Shown in pieces: positions 37,046 to 48,250 of a stretch of 48,250 bases of DNA. This stretch comes from Prosthecobacter debontii (GTDB lineage Bacteria > Verrucomicrobiota > Verrucomicrobiia > Chthoniobacterales > Chthoniobacteraceae): contig CAMDQC010000020.1 in NCBI GenBank assembly GCA_945905735.1, forward strand, positions 1-48,250, written 5' to 3'. The first letter of the stretch is position 1, and every line of letters starts with the position of its first letter. The notes below the pieces were generated by a model that saw nothing but the letters and a program-made list of their open reading frames with translations, had not been told where the DNA came from and made no database searches. The position numbers were made by a program, and so were the translations under genes.

Positions 37046-38047
37046 CTATTTCTCCCGCTTTTCTCGCTTGAAGAACGGCTTCTCGACATGGGCGTAAGCG
37101 TCGGGGGCGATCTCGTGTGCGGTCTTGAAATGCACCTTTGCGATCTGTTTTAGGAACTCTGGCCCGTGTGTTTTGACGAGCGCTCTGGCGGTGTCTTTCA
37201 CCGCTGCGGACACGCCTTTTTCCAGCGTCCGGCCAATGTCGCGGCCTTTTTCAAAGAGCCAGTTGATAAATCGCTCGCGCGCAATGATGGATGCCGCGGC
37301 CACTGCGACATCGCTCTCGGCCTTGGTCCGCGCATCGAGCTGGATGTGCTTCGCCTTCTCGGAAAAGGCGCGTTTGATGAGGCTGGCGCTGGCAAATTTG
37401 TCGCTTAAAGCGCGGGGGCATTCGGGCCGTTGGTCCAGCAAATGTTCGATGACCTTGGCGTGGCCCCAGCCGAGGAGTTTGTTGAGGTTTTGAAATTTTC
37501 CGTAGAGCTCGTTGTACTTTTCTGGCGCGAGCGTGATGCTTGAAAACGCTACGCCTCGTGTCTGGCGGATGATTGCTGATAACTCGCGAATCTTTGCATC
37601 CGTGCCGATGCGTTTGCTGTCCATCACACCGGCTTCCATGAGCGCTCGCGTGCTCTCAGCATCCGTGTAGCAGCCGGCGATGACGAGTGGGCCGAAGAAA
37701 TCGCCCTTCCCGCTCTCGTCGATGCCGAAATGCGGCTCAAACATCGCCGGGTTGTGGACCTCTTCATAACCGAGCTTCGCCTCGCCGAGAATCTCTGGCT
37801 CCAAGGTGAACTGCACAAACTCCTGAGTGCCTCTGCCTTGCACGACGACTTTCGGCCCTTTCTCGTAGCAGGCGACGGTCAATTTATCCTTCTGTGCGAA
37901 GAAGAGCATGTATTGCCGAACGTCGAATTTCCAGCCCTGCTCGGTGAGTAAAGTACGGAGCTTTTGCGCCTGCGGAAGCGACAACCCGGCGGTGTGAATC
38001 GTGATTGGTTTTGGCCCCTGCTCCTCGGCTTTTGGTTTCTTCGGCAT
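37046..38047 (-). CDS. rnhC: Ribonuclease HIII
   Basis: The 333-residue enzyme cuts RNA in RNA-DNA hybrids. The N-terminal third is the TBP-like substrate-binding domain of RNase HIII ([25 protein letters not shown], then [19 protein letters not shown]). The catalytic domain follows, with [22 protein letters not shown] (acidic pair), MDSKRI and [22 protein letters not shown]. This combined length and the N-terminal domain separate it from RNase HII. It diverges from rhaA across 148 nt that should hold both promoters. Confidence 0.92.
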
Positions 38048-38195
38048 CGCGTCACGTTTCGCGGATTCGCGGGCGGAGGGGAAGAATGATGTTTTTCAAG
38101 TTGAGCGCGACTGTTTGGCACCCCCTGTTCTTATCGCCTTCATTGATGCGGAGGCTTTCCATTCGCTTCATCCGTTCCGTAAAAGGACGACCCTT

Positions 38196-39458
38196 ATGGC
38201 CAAGCAATCTTCCGTCACCAAAGCCTACGACCTCGCCCGCGAACGCTACGCCGCGCTCGGCGTCGATACCGAGGCCGCGCTAAAAGCCGCCCGCGGCCTC
38301 AGCATCTCGCTGCATTGCTGGCAGGGCGATGACGTCGGCGGGTTTGAAACCGGCGGCAGCACCCTCGGCGGCGGCCTCGCCGTCACCGGCAACTATCCCG
38401 GCAAAGCCCGCACGCCCGACGAACTCCGCGCCGACCTCGACAAGGCCCTCTCGCTCATCCCCGGCAAACACCGGCTGAATCTTCATGCGATGTATGGCGA
38501 ATTCGGCGGCAAGCGCGTGGACCGCGACGCCATCGAGATGGAGCACTTCACCGGCTGGGTGGAATGGGCGCACGCAAACCAGATGGGGCTCGATTTTAAC
38601 CCGAGCTGCTTCGCGCACCCGAAAGCGGCCGACGGATTCACCCTCTCGCACCGCGACAAGGGCATCCGCAGTTTCTGGATCGAACACTGCCGCCGCTCCC
38701 GCGAAATCGGCGCGGCGATGGGCAAAGTGCTCGGCTCTCCCGCAGTCACAAACGTGTGGGTGCCCGACGGCTACAAAGACACACCCGCCGACCGACTCGC
38801 CCCGCGCGAGCGACTCGCAGCCTCGCTCGACGCCGTTTTCAAAAAACCGCTCAAGCACAACTACGACGCCGTGGAGCCCAAGCTCTTCGGCATCGGAAGC
38901 GAAAGCTACGTCGTCGGCTCGCACGAATTTTACCTCGGCTACGCCATCTCGCGGCAAAAAGTTTTCTGCCTCGATGCCGGGCACTTTCACCCGACGGAAG
39001 GCATCGCGGATAAAATCAGCAGCGTCTTCCAATACGTCCCGCGCGTCCTGCTCCACGTCAGCCGCGGCATGCGCTGGGACAGCGACCACGTCGTCACGCT
39101 CACCGACGACCTCCAGCAAATCGCGCAGGAACTCGTGCGCGGCGCATTCCTCCCGCGCACGCACCTCGGGCTGGATTATTTCGACGCCAGCATCAACCGA
39201 GTCGCCGCCTGGGTCATCGGCACGCGCAACTTCCTCAAAGCCCTGCTCATCGCCATGCTGGAGCCCATCGATAAACTCCGCGCCGCCGAAAACACCGGCG
39301 ACCTCACCACGCGCCTCGCGCTGCAAGAAGAGGCGAAAACCATGCCTTTCAGCGCAGTCTGGGACGCCTACTGCGAGCAGCAAAATGTGCCTGTCGGGGA
39401 TAAGTGGCTGGCTGAGGTGAAGGGGTACGAACGGGAGGTTTTCGCGAACCGCAGATAA
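38196..39458 (+). CDS. rhaA: L-rhamnose isomerase
   Basis: The 420-residue enzyme converts L-rhamnose to L-rhamnulose. Family blocks include [72 protein letters not shown] and [13 protein letters not shown], which hold the metal-binding His, Asp and Glu residues. The ATG at 38196 is preceded by AAAAGGACG; the frame is open further back but without family match. The last three codons and the TAA stop (NRR-stop) lie inside the left inverted repeat at 39447-39476, so the original C-terminus may have been altered. It is followed by a GxxExxY gene and a sugar ABC ATPase. Confidence 0.93.
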
Positions 39459-39476
39459 ACGCAAATCAACGCAGAT
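39447..39476 (+). repeat. Left 30-bp inverted repeat of the GxxExxY cassette
   Basis: The repeat starts AACCGCAGATAAACGCAAAT and consists of three 10-nt units (x-ACCGCAGAT, AAACGCAAAT, CAACGCAGAT). It is the inverse of 39876-39905 with two mismatches. It contains the rhaA stop codon, and its last two bases are the first two of the ATG of the GxxExxY gene. Confidence 0.85.
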
Positions 39477-39873
39477 GAATGATGTGACTTATTTGAAGAG
39501 CGAGAGCTACCAGCTTATTGGGGCTGCGTTCGCCGTGTACAATGAACGAGGGTTCGGACTTGCTGAGGAGATTTACCAAGAATGCCTTGAGATAGAGTTG
39601 GAGATAGTGGGCATACCGTTTCGTGCGAAGCAGGAACTGGCCTGTTTTTACAAAGGCCGAGAACTCAAGCGTCGCTACATCCCTGACCTTATGGTTTTCG
39701 AGAGCATCGTTGTAGAACTCAAAGCGGTGACCCAGCTTTTACCTGAACACGAAGCTCAACTCCTCAATTATATGCGCATCACCAAACAGCCGCTCGGCTA
39801 CCTCATCAATTTCGGCAAACGCGGCAGTCTCGAATACAAACGCTACATTCTATCCGAATACCTCCCTGCGTAA
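39475..39873 (+). CDS. GxxExxY family protein
   Basis: The 132-residue protein has the namesake motif GFGLAEEIYQECLEIEL and a PD-(D/E)XK-like core (RAKQELACFYKGRELKRRYIPDLMV, then IVVELKAVTQLLPEHEAQLLNYMRIT). The family is restriction-nuclease-like, but its function is not established. It is scattered in environmental genomes. Here it is inserted between two rhamnose-use genes and bracketed by near-perfect 30-bp inverted repeats, suggesting a small mobile or mobilised cassette. Its GC content and codon choice are visibly lower-GC than its neighbours. Confidence 0.9.
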   Translation: MNDVTYLKSESYQLIGAAFAVYNERGFGLAEEIYQECLEIELEIVGIPFRAKQELACFYKGRELKRRYIPDLMVFESIVVELKAVTQLLPEHEAQLLNYMRITKQPLGYLINFGKRGSLEYKRYILSEYLPA

Positions 39874-39875
39874 AA

Positions 39876-39905
39876 ATCTGCGTTCATTTGCGTATATCTG
39901 CGGTT
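39876..39905 (+). repeat. Right 30-bp inverted repeat of the GxxExxY cassette
   Basis: The repeat begins ATCTGCGTTCATTTGCGTAT. It is the reverse complement of 39447-39476 apart from two positions. It starts two bases after the GxxExxY stop and ends two bases before the ATG of the sugar ABC gene, so that gene has no visible Shine-Dalgarno sequence. Confidence 0.85.
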
Positions 39906-39907
39906 CC

Positions 39908-41389
39908 ATGAATCCCATTCTCCAACTCTCAGCGGTTAAAAAATTCTTCGGCGCAGTCCGTGCGTTGAAGGGCGTTTCATTTGATCTCCACGCCGGTGAA
40001 GTCCACGCGCTGCTCGGTGAAAATGGCGCGGGGAAATCGACGCTCATCAAAGTCATCACTGGTGCGCATCAGCCCGACGGCGGCGCGCTCACCGTCGGCG
40101 GCGAAACCGTCGCGGCACTCACACCGTCCAAAGCACGCGAACTCGGAATCGCCTGCATTTATCAGCAACCGGCGCTTTTCCCCGATCTCACCGTGGCGGA
40201 AAACATCGGTCTGCGGCTCAAGAAATCTGGCGCGTTTTCGCGGGTGAAATGGGCGGAGCAGCGCACGCTAGCGGCGGAATTGCTGAAGCGCATCGGCGCG
40301 GATATTTCGCCGGATGCGGAAGTCCGTTCGCTCTCGATGCCCGAGCAGCAGCTCGTCGAAATCGCCTGCGCACTCGGCACTGGCGCGCGCATCGTCATCA
40401 TGGACGAGCCCACCGCTTCGCTCACTCAGAAGGAGCAGCACCTTCTTTTTGCCGTCGTGAAAAGCCTGCGCGAAAGCGGCGTCGGCGTCGTGTATATCTC
40501 GCATCGCATGGAGGAAATCTTCGCGCTCGCGGACCGTGTCACCGTCCTGCGCGATGGCGAGAGCGTCGGCACGCATCCGACTGCAAACATGACCGAAGCC
40601 GAGCTCATCAAGCTCATGGTGGGGCGTGAAGTCTCTCACATTTATCCCGCGGCGGATGGCACGCCGGGCGAGGTCGTGCTCTCGTTGAAAAACGTCGGCT
40701 CGCGCGCTGGCGGAGTTCGCGGCGTGAGCCTCGATGTCCGCGCTGGCGAAATCGTCGGACTCGCCGGGCTCGTCGGCGCGGGTCGCACGGAACTCGCGCG
40801 CATCCTTTTCGGAATCACCCCAGCCGACTCCGGCGAGATTCTGCTGAACGGAAAAAGCATCACCATCGGCAGCCCACGCGAAGCCATTGCGCACGGCATC
40901 GCATACGTCCCCGAAGATCGCCGACGGCACGGAGTCATCCTCGAAATGCCGATCGCCCACAACATGACGATGGCCATCCACCCGACGTTCTTCCCCGGCT
41001 CGCTCCTGCGCACTGGCGCGGAGTCGGAGCTCGCGCAGCAATTTATCCGCGACCTCGGCATCAAAGCATACGGACCCGAAGCGCCCGGCGGCTCGCTCAG
41101 CGGCGGCAACCAGCAAAAAGTCAGCGTCGCCCGCTGGCTCGCGACAAAGCCGAAACTGCTCATCCTCGATGAACCCACGCAAGGCGTGGATGTCGGAGCC
41201 AAAAGCGAGATACATAAAATCATCCGCGCCCTCGCGAAGGACGGACTGGCCGTGCTCATGATCTCCAGCGACCTGCCCGAAGCTCTCGGCATGAGCGACC
41301 GTACCGCCGTCATGCGCGGCGGCACCATCGCGGCGATCCTCCCCGGCGGCAGCGACGCACACGCCGTCATGGCTGCGGCGCTGGGGTGA
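39908..41389 (+). CDS. Sugar ABC transporter ATP-binding protein (RbsA/RhaT-like, two ABC domains)
   Basis: The 493-residue protein holds two fused ABC domains of the CUT2 sugar-importer type. Domain 1 has Walker A GENGAGKST, signature region LSMPEQQLVEIA and Walker B IVIMDEPTASL. Domain 2 has a degenerate Walker A (GLVGAGRTE), signature LSGGNQQKVSVARW and Walker B LLILDEPTQGVD. This asymmetry is normal for RbsA. Its place after rhaA suggests rhamnose import. The permease and binding-protein genes that should follow are missing: the next gene is on the opposite strand and its stop abuts this one. The ATG at 39908 lies two bases after the inverted repeat. Confidence 0.9.
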   Translation: MNPILQLSAVKKFFGAVRALKGVSFDLHAGEVHALLGENGAGKSTLIKVITGAHQPDGGALTVGGETVAALTPSKARELGIACIYQQPALFPDLTVAENIGLRLKKSGAFSRVKWAEQRTLAAELLKRIGADISPDAEVRSLSMPEQQLVEIACALGTGARIVIMDEPTASLTQKEQHLLFAVVKSLRESGVGVVYISHRMEEIFALADRVTVLRDGESVGTHPTANMTEAELIKLMVGREVSHIYPAADGTPGEVVLSLKNVGSRAGGVRGVSLDVRAGEIVGLAGLVGAGRTELARILFGITPADSGEILLNGKSITIGSPREAIAHGIAYVPEDRRRHGVILEMPIAHNMTMAIHPTFFPGSLLRTGAESELAQQFIRDLGIKAYGPEAPGGSLSGGNQQKVSVARWLATKPKLLILDEPTQGVDVGAKSEIHKIIRALAKDGLAVLMISSDLPEALGMSDRTAVMRGGTIAAILPGGSDAHAVMAAALG

Positions 41390-45139: not shown

Positions 45140-45240
45140 GGGTGTGATTAAAAGTGGAAGAGTGCGAGTGGCTTGGGCGTCTCGCCCATGAAGGAGCGAT
45201 ACTCATGGGCGGGACGCCCAAGCCACTTTTAATCACACCC
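45140..45240. mobile_element. 101-bp MITE-like palindromic element with 18-bp termini and 9-bp target duplication
   Basis: GGGTGTGATTAAAAGTGG at 45140-45157 is the exact reverse complement of CCACTTTTAATCACACCC at 45223-45240. Inside, GTGGCTTGGGCGTCTCGCCC (from 45168) pairs with an inverted copy ending at 45226, with one mismatch. The element is flanked by the direct repeat GGCGCGAAT at 45131-45139 and 45241-45249. No coding capacity is visible, so a transposase would have to act in trans. Confidence 0.75.
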
Positions 45241-45250
45241 GGCGCGAATG

Positions 45251-45341
45251 GGAGCGGGGCTTTCCTAAGCCCCGTTGCCACGTCAGTGGCAAGCGTGAGT
45301 TGCCGCTACGCGCCAAACGGGGCTTAGGAAAGCCCCGCTCC
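45251..45341. repeat. Dispersed palindrome with 26-bp inverted arms
   Basis: The arm at 45251-45276 (GGAGCGGGGCTTTCCTAAGC...) is the exact inverse of 45316-45341. Each arm can itself fold (GGGGCTT-TCCT-AAGCCCC), and the centre holds TTGCCAC-GTCA-GTGGCAA. It resembles REP/BIME-type elements and lies directly next to the MITE-like element. Confidence 0.75.
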
Positions 45342-45400
45342 GATTTCGCCGAAAGGGAACTTGCCTCACCCCGCCCCGCTTGCTCGCCTCTCCCCGCAAC

Positions 45401-48022: not shown

Positions 48023-48250
48023 CGCGAATGCGTGGAGCACCGAAGGTGCGGCGACATACCAGCCCAGGGCAACGGGGTGTGATTAAAAGTGGAATTGCGC
48101 GAAGCGCACAAGGAGCGGCGACATTCCTGTCGCTGTCCCCATAGCGCGAAGCGCCTGATCAGATACGCACGGCTCTGGGAAACTGCACGGTGCTCGATAA
48201 TGGGCGCTTCGCGCTCTCAGGACAGCGACAGGAATGTCGCCGCTCCTTGT
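48023..48250. repeat. Nested palindromic repeats at the window end
   Basis: GGGTGTGATTAAAAGTGG at 48075-48092 is identical to the terminus of the element at 45140. No matching right arm is seen before the window ends. Inside it, a 31-bp perfect inverted repeat (48108-48138 with 48220-48250, starting ACAAGGAGCGGCGACATTCC) surrounds a second 13-bp inverted repeat built on AGCGCGAAGCGCC. The sequence before 48075 (GCACCGAAGGTGCGGCGACA) looks like another dispersed repeat interrupted at this point. Confidence 0.65.

Follow-up and report, generated by a model that had tools for sequence, protein, structure and literature searches.

Positions 39446 to 39906 of the 48,250-nucleotide stretch of Prosthecobacter debontii DNA analyzed here (the window) form a real, discrete cassette, in which one gene of the GxxExxY family lies between inverted arms built of a short repeated word, and this layout is general. 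It appears to be a small mobile cassette of a type little described so far. Our preferred reading, which we hold to be probable though far from certain, is that it operates in a REPIN/RAYT-like manner, with a Cas4-like nuclease that would recognize its own arms.

A bracketed gene between rhaA and an ABC transporter gene

In a repeat search, the two arms were 31 nt each, 94% complementary, and separated by 399 nt (Table 1), with a single ORF between them. The units of the left arm begin at 39450, 39460, and 39470 and are thus 10 nt apart. The rhaA stop codon (TAA, 39456 to 39458) falls within the left arm, and the GxxExxY start codon (ATG, 39475 to 39477) begins on the last two bases of that arm. 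These positions agree with the initial annotation, which had described inverted repeats of three 10-nt units bracketing the gene, a left copy holding the rhaA stop and the first bases of the next gene, and a right copy ending (at 39905) two bases before the ABC start at 39908; only the arm length, given there as 30 nt, required correction. The annotation had also remarked that the ABC gene lacks a visible Shine-Dalgarno sequence. None was seen by eye, but relatives without the cassette show no obvious one either. Its absence may therefore have nothing to do with the cassette, and this proposed effect was dropped.

Table 1. Features of the cassette and its neighbors, in window coordinates
Feature	Position	Strand	Basis
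rhaA (L-rhamnose isomerase), upstream gene	38190..39458 (start approximate; ORF as called, 38001-39458)	+	PF06134, 656 bits over 38190-39455
Left arm, units CGCAGAT/CGCAAAT/CGCAGAT, spacing 10 nt	39446..39476	+	Repeat search, sequence
GxxExxY gene, 132 aa, RecB/Cas4-like PD-(D/E)XK fold predicted	39475..39873	+	TIGR04256, PF13366
Right arm, inverted copy of left arm	39876..39906	-	Repeat search; pairing in predicted RNA fold
ABC transporter ATPase, downstream gene, begins just past right arm	39908..41389	+	PF00005, 197 bits

The whole window contains 16 inverted pairs of at least 20 nt within 700 bp. Four of these reach at least 94% complementarity, and only the GxxExxY pair encloses a gene; the other three strong inverted repeats (48108-48250, 45247-45345, and 45167-45227) have arms of 25 to 48 nt with 11 to 47 nt between them. 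The cassette arms pair with each other over the length of the gene in the minimum-energy structure predicted for RNA of 39440-39912 (z = -4.3 relative to 100 shuffles). An Rfam search of 39300-40050 gave no match at E values up to 0.1.

The protein encoded between the arms matched TIGR04256 (132 bits against a cutoff of 35) and PF13366 (PDDEXK_3; 134 bits against a cutoff of 22). An AlphaFold2 model built from 49 window and locus sequences had a mean pLDDT of 94.8. The best solved match of this model in Foldseek was 4ic1 (SSO0001; E = 5.8e-5), which we take to be a Cas4, followed by RecE, AdnAB, DinG, and alkaline exonuclease (E = 0.005 to 0.009). Residues E31, D71, E81, K83, Q95, and Y99 were invariant or nearly so in the 49 sequences, and the D, ExK, and QxxxY residues presumably correspond to RecB/Cas4-type motifs. 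The modeled fold, with its conserved acidic and lysine residues, is of the PD-(D/E)XK type and points to a putative nuclease; together with the family memberships, it bears out the earlier view of the family as nuclease-like. The likeness to Cas4/RecB nucleases thus lies in the predicted fold and in the near invariance of D71, E81, K83, Q95, and Y99, whereas the GxxExxY protein has only 132 residues and its neighbors are rhaA and an ABC gene. A search of the PDB by sequence profile returned no match at E values up to 1, and the PADLOC anti-phage defense models returned no family for the window protein at E values up to 0.1. Viral or phage carriage was also considered and set aside, as a search of viral contigs with GxxExxY alignment A1 confirmed no relative and a phage search gave no GxxExxY match.

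A RhaA match was present in 31 of the 40 family genomes, and 16 junctions were inspected. Cassette-free rhaA-ABC junctions, a comparison that the initial annotation had proposed, exist in seven family genomes, where, at about 64 to 72% DNA identity, the alignment with the window locus picks up again within the ABC gene, 40 to 127 nt past the rhaA homology. No target-site duplication was seen at the window site in a comparison with cassette-free relatives that are too divergent for this purpose. We found no transposase partner for the window cassette. Orthologous GxxExxY genes occupy the same junction in genomes G009 (83% identity; CGCAGAT arms) and G008 (69% identity; CGCTAAT arms), and one or two gene-less hairpins adjoin the gene in both. 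The G008 arm begins at the same rhaA position, so that either the word changed in both arms with complementarity preserved, or another cassette took the place of the first. Three further genomes, G001 (L089), G005 (L090), and G007 (L091), have other small genes at the junction, with no evident arms; these encode an R2K ATP-grasp protein, an Imm11-like immunity protein, and a Tdi1-like immunity protein.

At a second junction, between two genes read from their translations as ABC permeases, a GxxExxY cassette with CGCTAAT-type arms is present in five loci (L122, L123, L126, L129, and L130). In G009, the homologous junction lies downstream of the rhaA and ABC genes and contains a CGCAGAT hairpin but no GxxExxY gene. 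Repeats standing without the gene at the window site would have counted against the cassette in the initial annotation; this G009 hairpin occupies another junction.

Arms and repeat words at other loci

Arms were scored as the best local match between the upstream flank and the reverse complement of the downstream flank (250 nt each), with a cutoff of 20 that was chosen after the first lists had been seen. The window locus scored 27. Scores of at least 20 were obtained for 18 of 21 standalone genus loci, 22 of 29 phylum loci, and 53 of 75 named-contig loci, compared with 0/117, 3/305, and 16/921 random intervals from the same loci, respectively, and 0/26 rhaA gene controls. Random pairing of flanks from different loci reached 20 in 11.9% of 5550 pairs (named contigs) and 6.7% of 420 pairs (genus), as words are shared among loci; even this harsher null lies far below the observed arm rate.

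The genus set comprised 21 of 29 TIGR04256 matches, after exclusion of eight two-domain or partial rows; the phylum sets comprised 29 fetched loci per family, out of longer lists, and the rhaA control comprised 26 of 30 loci. For the named contigs, 75 of 80 loci were used, with 5 near a contig end dropped. Those 80 were the best of 445 matches to alignment A1, so this set leans toward the subfamily of the window, and two of its members (L117 and L131) duplicate genes already in the genus set as L049 and L052. We pooled the three sets with 20 stretches picked mostly for long open frames, counting identical proteins once and taking flanks at ORF ends. In this pool, arms accompanied 97/141 single-domain genes, 6/6 two-domain genes, and 103/147 distinct genes overall. 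The expectation that the same inverted repeats would recur at other GxxExxY genes thus holds for the arms but not for their sequence, since the word varies from locus to locus. Homologues lacking repeats, named at the outset as evidence against the cassette, do occur: 44/147 genes have no arms at the score threshold.

Arm-positive named contigs span Verrucomicrobiota, Planctomycetota, Chloroflexota, Bacteroidota, Acidobacteriota, and Hydrogenedentota (taxon per record). Of eight plasmid records with GxxExxY, those from Bacteroides finegoldii (score, 24) and Bernardetia (20) have adjacent arms; the Gemmatirosa plasmid scored 23 with no clear units, and the Treponema, Sphingomonas, Persicobacter, Prevotella, and Fusobacteria records scored 10 to 18. 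On the Sphingomonas parapaucimobilis plasmid, the GxxExxY gene (L340, 1201-1629) is flanked by fabD and fabG; three CGCGAAG-type units precede it on the left, with no counterpart on the right.

Arm words included CGCAGAT, CGCTAAT, CACTAAT, CACGAAG, CACCAAG, CGCAAAG, CACAGAG, ACAGGAT, and others, and with this variation the idea of one common word at every GxxExxY gene was rejected. The best period, from custom autocorrelation scripts, was 10 in 44/58 named-contig loci and 8, 9, or 10 in all 20 genus loci; it was less sharp in the phylum set, where 14/24 loci had a period of 9 or 10. Arm similarity correlated with protein identity (Mantel r = 0.55) in 88 of 128 loci (score of at least 20, periodic, and with no stop), a set in which taxon is a partial confounder. 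The correlation was 0.29 for pairs below 55% identity (p = 0.0005) and 0.13 for pairs below 45%, and within one genus (16 loci) it was 0.46 (p = 0.0002). On these comparisons, the word appears to track the protein across loci. Two genomes weaken a strict rule of one word per gene. G008 retains many CGCAGAT-type pairs even though the arms of its rha-site gene read CGCTAAT, and only 3/7 of its CRCTAAT pairs are distant from that gene. G001 contains 34 word pairs, yet no GxxExxY gene was found in this genome of 86% completeness.

Spacing differed between one- and two-domain genes. Words of single-domain arms are mostly 8 to 10 nt apart, and repetition at a lag of 7 to 11 exceeded 95% of shuffles in 82/97 single-domain arms versus 0/6 two-domain arms. 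In two-domain arms, a word instead recurs after intervening sequence, at a distance of 15 to 18 nt (e.g., CGCAGAG-17-CGCAGAG in L051 and CAGCAGATT-18-CAGCAGATT in L054). The comparison was made post hoc on sequences already seen, and the long lag exceeded 95% of shuffles in only 2/6 two-domain arms because the arms are short. Four of the six genes came from the 29 genus matches and two from the 20 long-frame stretches (L051, L047, L054, L043, L366, and L368); L054 and L043 were counted as two-domain by length, as their second halves are too diverged for the profile to find more than one domain at the cut used. In the 147-gene pool, 18/97 single-domain arms peak at 16 to 21, many of them likely doubled periods. 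If the contrast in word spacing holds, each GxxExxY domain would read one unit.

The same layout, with 7-nt words, surrounds genes of the TIGR02436 family, which we take, partly from record annotations, to be linked to S23p. Arm scores of at least 20 were found at 25/27 genus loci (control, 1/134) and 19/29 phylum loci (control, 16/296), and random pairing of flanks from different loci reached 20 in 5.6% of cases. The genus set comprised 27 of 30 loci (two were partial and one was not taken). The period was 7 or 14 in 21/26 genus loci, with 14 counted as twice 7, and 7 in 21/24 phylum loci. We examined 10 of 28 matching plasmid records, all cyanobacterial; 8/10 scored at least 20, and all 8 had a period of 7. 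Two Nostoc plasmids, L346 (562-939) and L350 (565-930), carry four-helix TIGR02436 genes with 7-nt arms and have reciprocal empty sites, at each of which the two flanking genes are joined by a few bases. The reciprocal sites are the cleanest evidence of neat cassette insertion between genes. The Nostoc arms presumably resemble the heptamer repeats of cyanobacteria. On other cyanobacterial plasmids, four-helix genes lie between cas10 and a cmr3-family gene (L352, 571-927) and between cas6 and cas4 (L348, 577-936).

Gene-less hairpins and mobility

The genome that carries the window contains the unit pair CGCWRAT-CGCWRAT at 53 places, gene arms included, against 0 for the backward control. Many of these pairs belong to closed hairpins of 60 to 130 bp, with the unit order of the left arm, and the middle unit of the window arm (CGCAAAT) is also found in gene-less hairpins of this genome. 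Four gene-less hairpins were tested, and each forms a strong fold in single-stranded DNA (z = -3.0 to -12.5). The gene is thus flanked by repeats of which gene-less doublets are dispersed in the genome, as in REPINs.

Across 96 phylum genomes, GxxExxY was matched in 46 and TIGR02436 in 69. At least four three-unit arrays were present in 33/46 genomes with a GxxExxY match versus 1/50 without; array totals were 763 and 24, respectively, with 44 and 6 for the backward-pattern controls. This contrast persisted per megabase and among genomes with TIGR02436 (40 versus 29 genomes), and it was weak among those without TIGR02436 (6 versus 21 genomes; p = 0.04). It was seen inside four of seven mixed families (f4, f10, f19, and f26), the remaining three having 0 or 1 array in both groups. 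In families f5, f15, and f17, the gene is present with 0 or 1 array. Among the arrays listed for four genomes, 10/118 lay within 700 bp of a listed gene and 108/118 lay farther away; the gene lists are incomplete for three of these genomes and the array list for one.

The one clean case of mobility of a gene-less copy is a 155-bp element at G000:C44 that is precisely absent from G008:C102, with flanks of 93 to 95% identity. TTAAA stands on both sides of the element in G000:C44 and once in G008:C102, and copies of 94 to 95% identity occur elsewhere in G008. The ends of this element, CCCGAACGCCGC, are situated beyond the word arms, and elsewhere they enclose different contents. Copies of the end with up to 1 mismatch numbered 70, versus 13 for the backward pattern; by sequence inspection, these ends are absent from the window cassette. 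The transposon-like palindromic element that they define, with ends CCCGAACGCCGC(GATTG/TTTTG) and the TTAAA duplication at its C44 copy, was found in G000 at C44:6606-6764, C14:26383-26539, C132, C176, C71, C81, C127, and C206 (L285-L307), and its center holds word hairpins of the 9- and 10-nt types or unrelated contents.

The G000:C44 case establishes that word hairpins travel, but the mover need not be GxxExxY. In the window genome, gene-less hairpins are often embedded in an independent element of this kind, which brings ends and a target duplication of its own; something other than GxxExxY may thus have moved them. Of the initial suggestion, the discrete cassette is sustained and gene-less copies are common. 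No GxxExxY cassette insertion was found between near-identical sequences, and movement of the cassette by its repeats is something we infer.

Interpretation and relation to known systems

In the mechanism that we consider probable, a single GxxExxY nuclease gene would sit between inverted arms, each with a short word in roughly three copies, and the arms would fold as a hairpin, either in single-stranded DNA at replication or as a cruciform. The minimal RecB/Cas4-like nuclease would recognize, and cut at, the words that make up its own arms, with one unit read by each domain. The hairpin, with or without the gene, would then be copied into intergenic gaps. Where the cassette lies in an operon, pairing of the arms may in addition lead to their removal from the transcript, in the manner of rRNA intervening sequences, which would render the insertion harmless. 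The arms accompany the gene; nuclease activity, recognition of the words, and spread driven by the protein are what we infer from that association and from the predicted fold.

Other readings account for parts of these data. The arms could act in RNA, the stem being removed from a polycistronic message by RNase III or a similar enzyme, or controlling translation of the cassette and ABC genes, with the gene as cargo that spreads by other means. Pairing of the window arms across the gene in the predicted fold and the location of cassettes between operon-like gene pairs are in line with this, as is the rRNA intervening sequence of Coxiella, an S23p gene in terminal inverted repeats that is cut by RNase III in vitro according to the available text of PMC4990558. 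A role in RNA at the gene does not, however, predict dispersed gene-less hairpins that follow the presence of the gene; complementarity alone leaves the even word spacing and the distinct two-domain arms unexplained, and the cassette region gave no Rfam match. We therefore regard this reading as unlikely. The hairpins could also be ordinary MITEs moved by a conventional transposase, with GxxExxY genes as passengers between them, and the CCCGAACGCCGC ends around many hairpins of the window genome, together with the 155-bp copy that is absent at the orthologous G008 site, its TTAAA duplication, and its near-identical copies in G008, fit such an origin. The window cassette has no such ends, and neither the link between word and protein nor the phylum-wide co-occurrence of gene and hairpin would be explained, which leaves passengers between MITEs similarly improbable.

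The order of events might instead be reversed, with word hairpins spread first by host processes and GxxExxY genes inserting into or between them. Gene-less hairpins beside the gene at the rhaA junction of G008 and G009, and the gene-less hairpin of G009 at a junction where five other loci carry the gene, would suit this order; with 24 arrays in 50 genomes without the gene against 763 in 46 with it, we think hairpins serving as landing sites quite improbable. Chance or a quirk of metagenome assembly deserves mention, as most of the listed named-contig relatives are metagenome-assembled genomes. The interval and rhaA controls, and the arms on complete plasmids (clear in 2 of 8 for GxxExxY and present in 8/10 for TIGR02436), reduce this to a negligible prospect.

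We return to the reading of the cassette as a nuclease gene with its own recognition arms. In the available text of PMC3116915, REPIN/RAYT systems are short repeats that go with one protein gene, the gene-less inverted doublets disperse and fold as hairpins, and repeat classes match particular RAYTs. The system in the window likewise has repeats tied to one gene and dispersed gene-less hairpins. In contrast, its enzyme is of the PD-(D/E)XK type rather than a tyrosine (HUH) transposase, its arms are tandem, locus-specific words mostly 8 to 10 nt apart, and one genome can hold several GxxExxY genes with different words. REPIN/RAYT is the closest system in its working; because the enzyme differs, the cassette is not a member.

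The 23S rRNA intervening sequence of Coxiella, for which the available text of PMC4990558 gives a small S23p ORF within terminal inverted repeats, a 28-bp stem, and an origin called unclear, shares a small ORF between inverted repeats, and the TIGR02436 family shows this arm layout. It differs in being inserted in rRNA helices and in encoding a four-helix bundle, with a TIGR02436 word period of 7 nt; the window cassette lies between rhaA and the ABC gene and not in an rRNA gene. MITEs resemble the system as gene-less inverted-repeat elements that are present or absent at orthologous sites, but the window cassette has neither a target duplication nor a transposase partner among our findings. 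The bacterial heptamer repeats GGGAATC, GGGGATT, and TAACTGA are intergenic tandem 7-nt words, sometimes in inverted pairs in Xanthomonas, and are tied to no protein gene in the available text of PMC4692102 and PMC4679880, whereas 7-nt arms here flank TIGR02436 genes. In the text available to us from the open-licence literature (subscription papers, preprints, and supplements being outside its scope), we found no description of arms around GxxExxY genes.

A wider proposal, which we offer tentatively and hold to be possible rather than probable, is a general class of bacterial hairpin cassettes, with inverted arms composed of a few tandem words, in which the protein sets the spacing of the words: mostly 8 to 10 nt for one-domain GxxExxY, 15 to 18 nt with a different word in between for two-domain GxxExxY, and 7 nt for the four-helix TIGR02436 proteins. 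The word could change if both arms change together, each GxxExxY domain would read one unit, and a doubled protein would read two different words. No classical transposase would be needed for the proteins to spread, copy, or rewrite hairpins, and the class would include, as members or relics, rRNA intervening sequences and the heptamer repeats that have long lacked an explanation.

If the flanking words are substrates of GxxExxY and TIGR02436 proteins, many short intergenic repeats in these phyla would have a cause, and the origin of rRNA intervening sequences would become testable. GxxExxY would then be a minimal Cas4-like enzyme whose recognition words can be read and can change.
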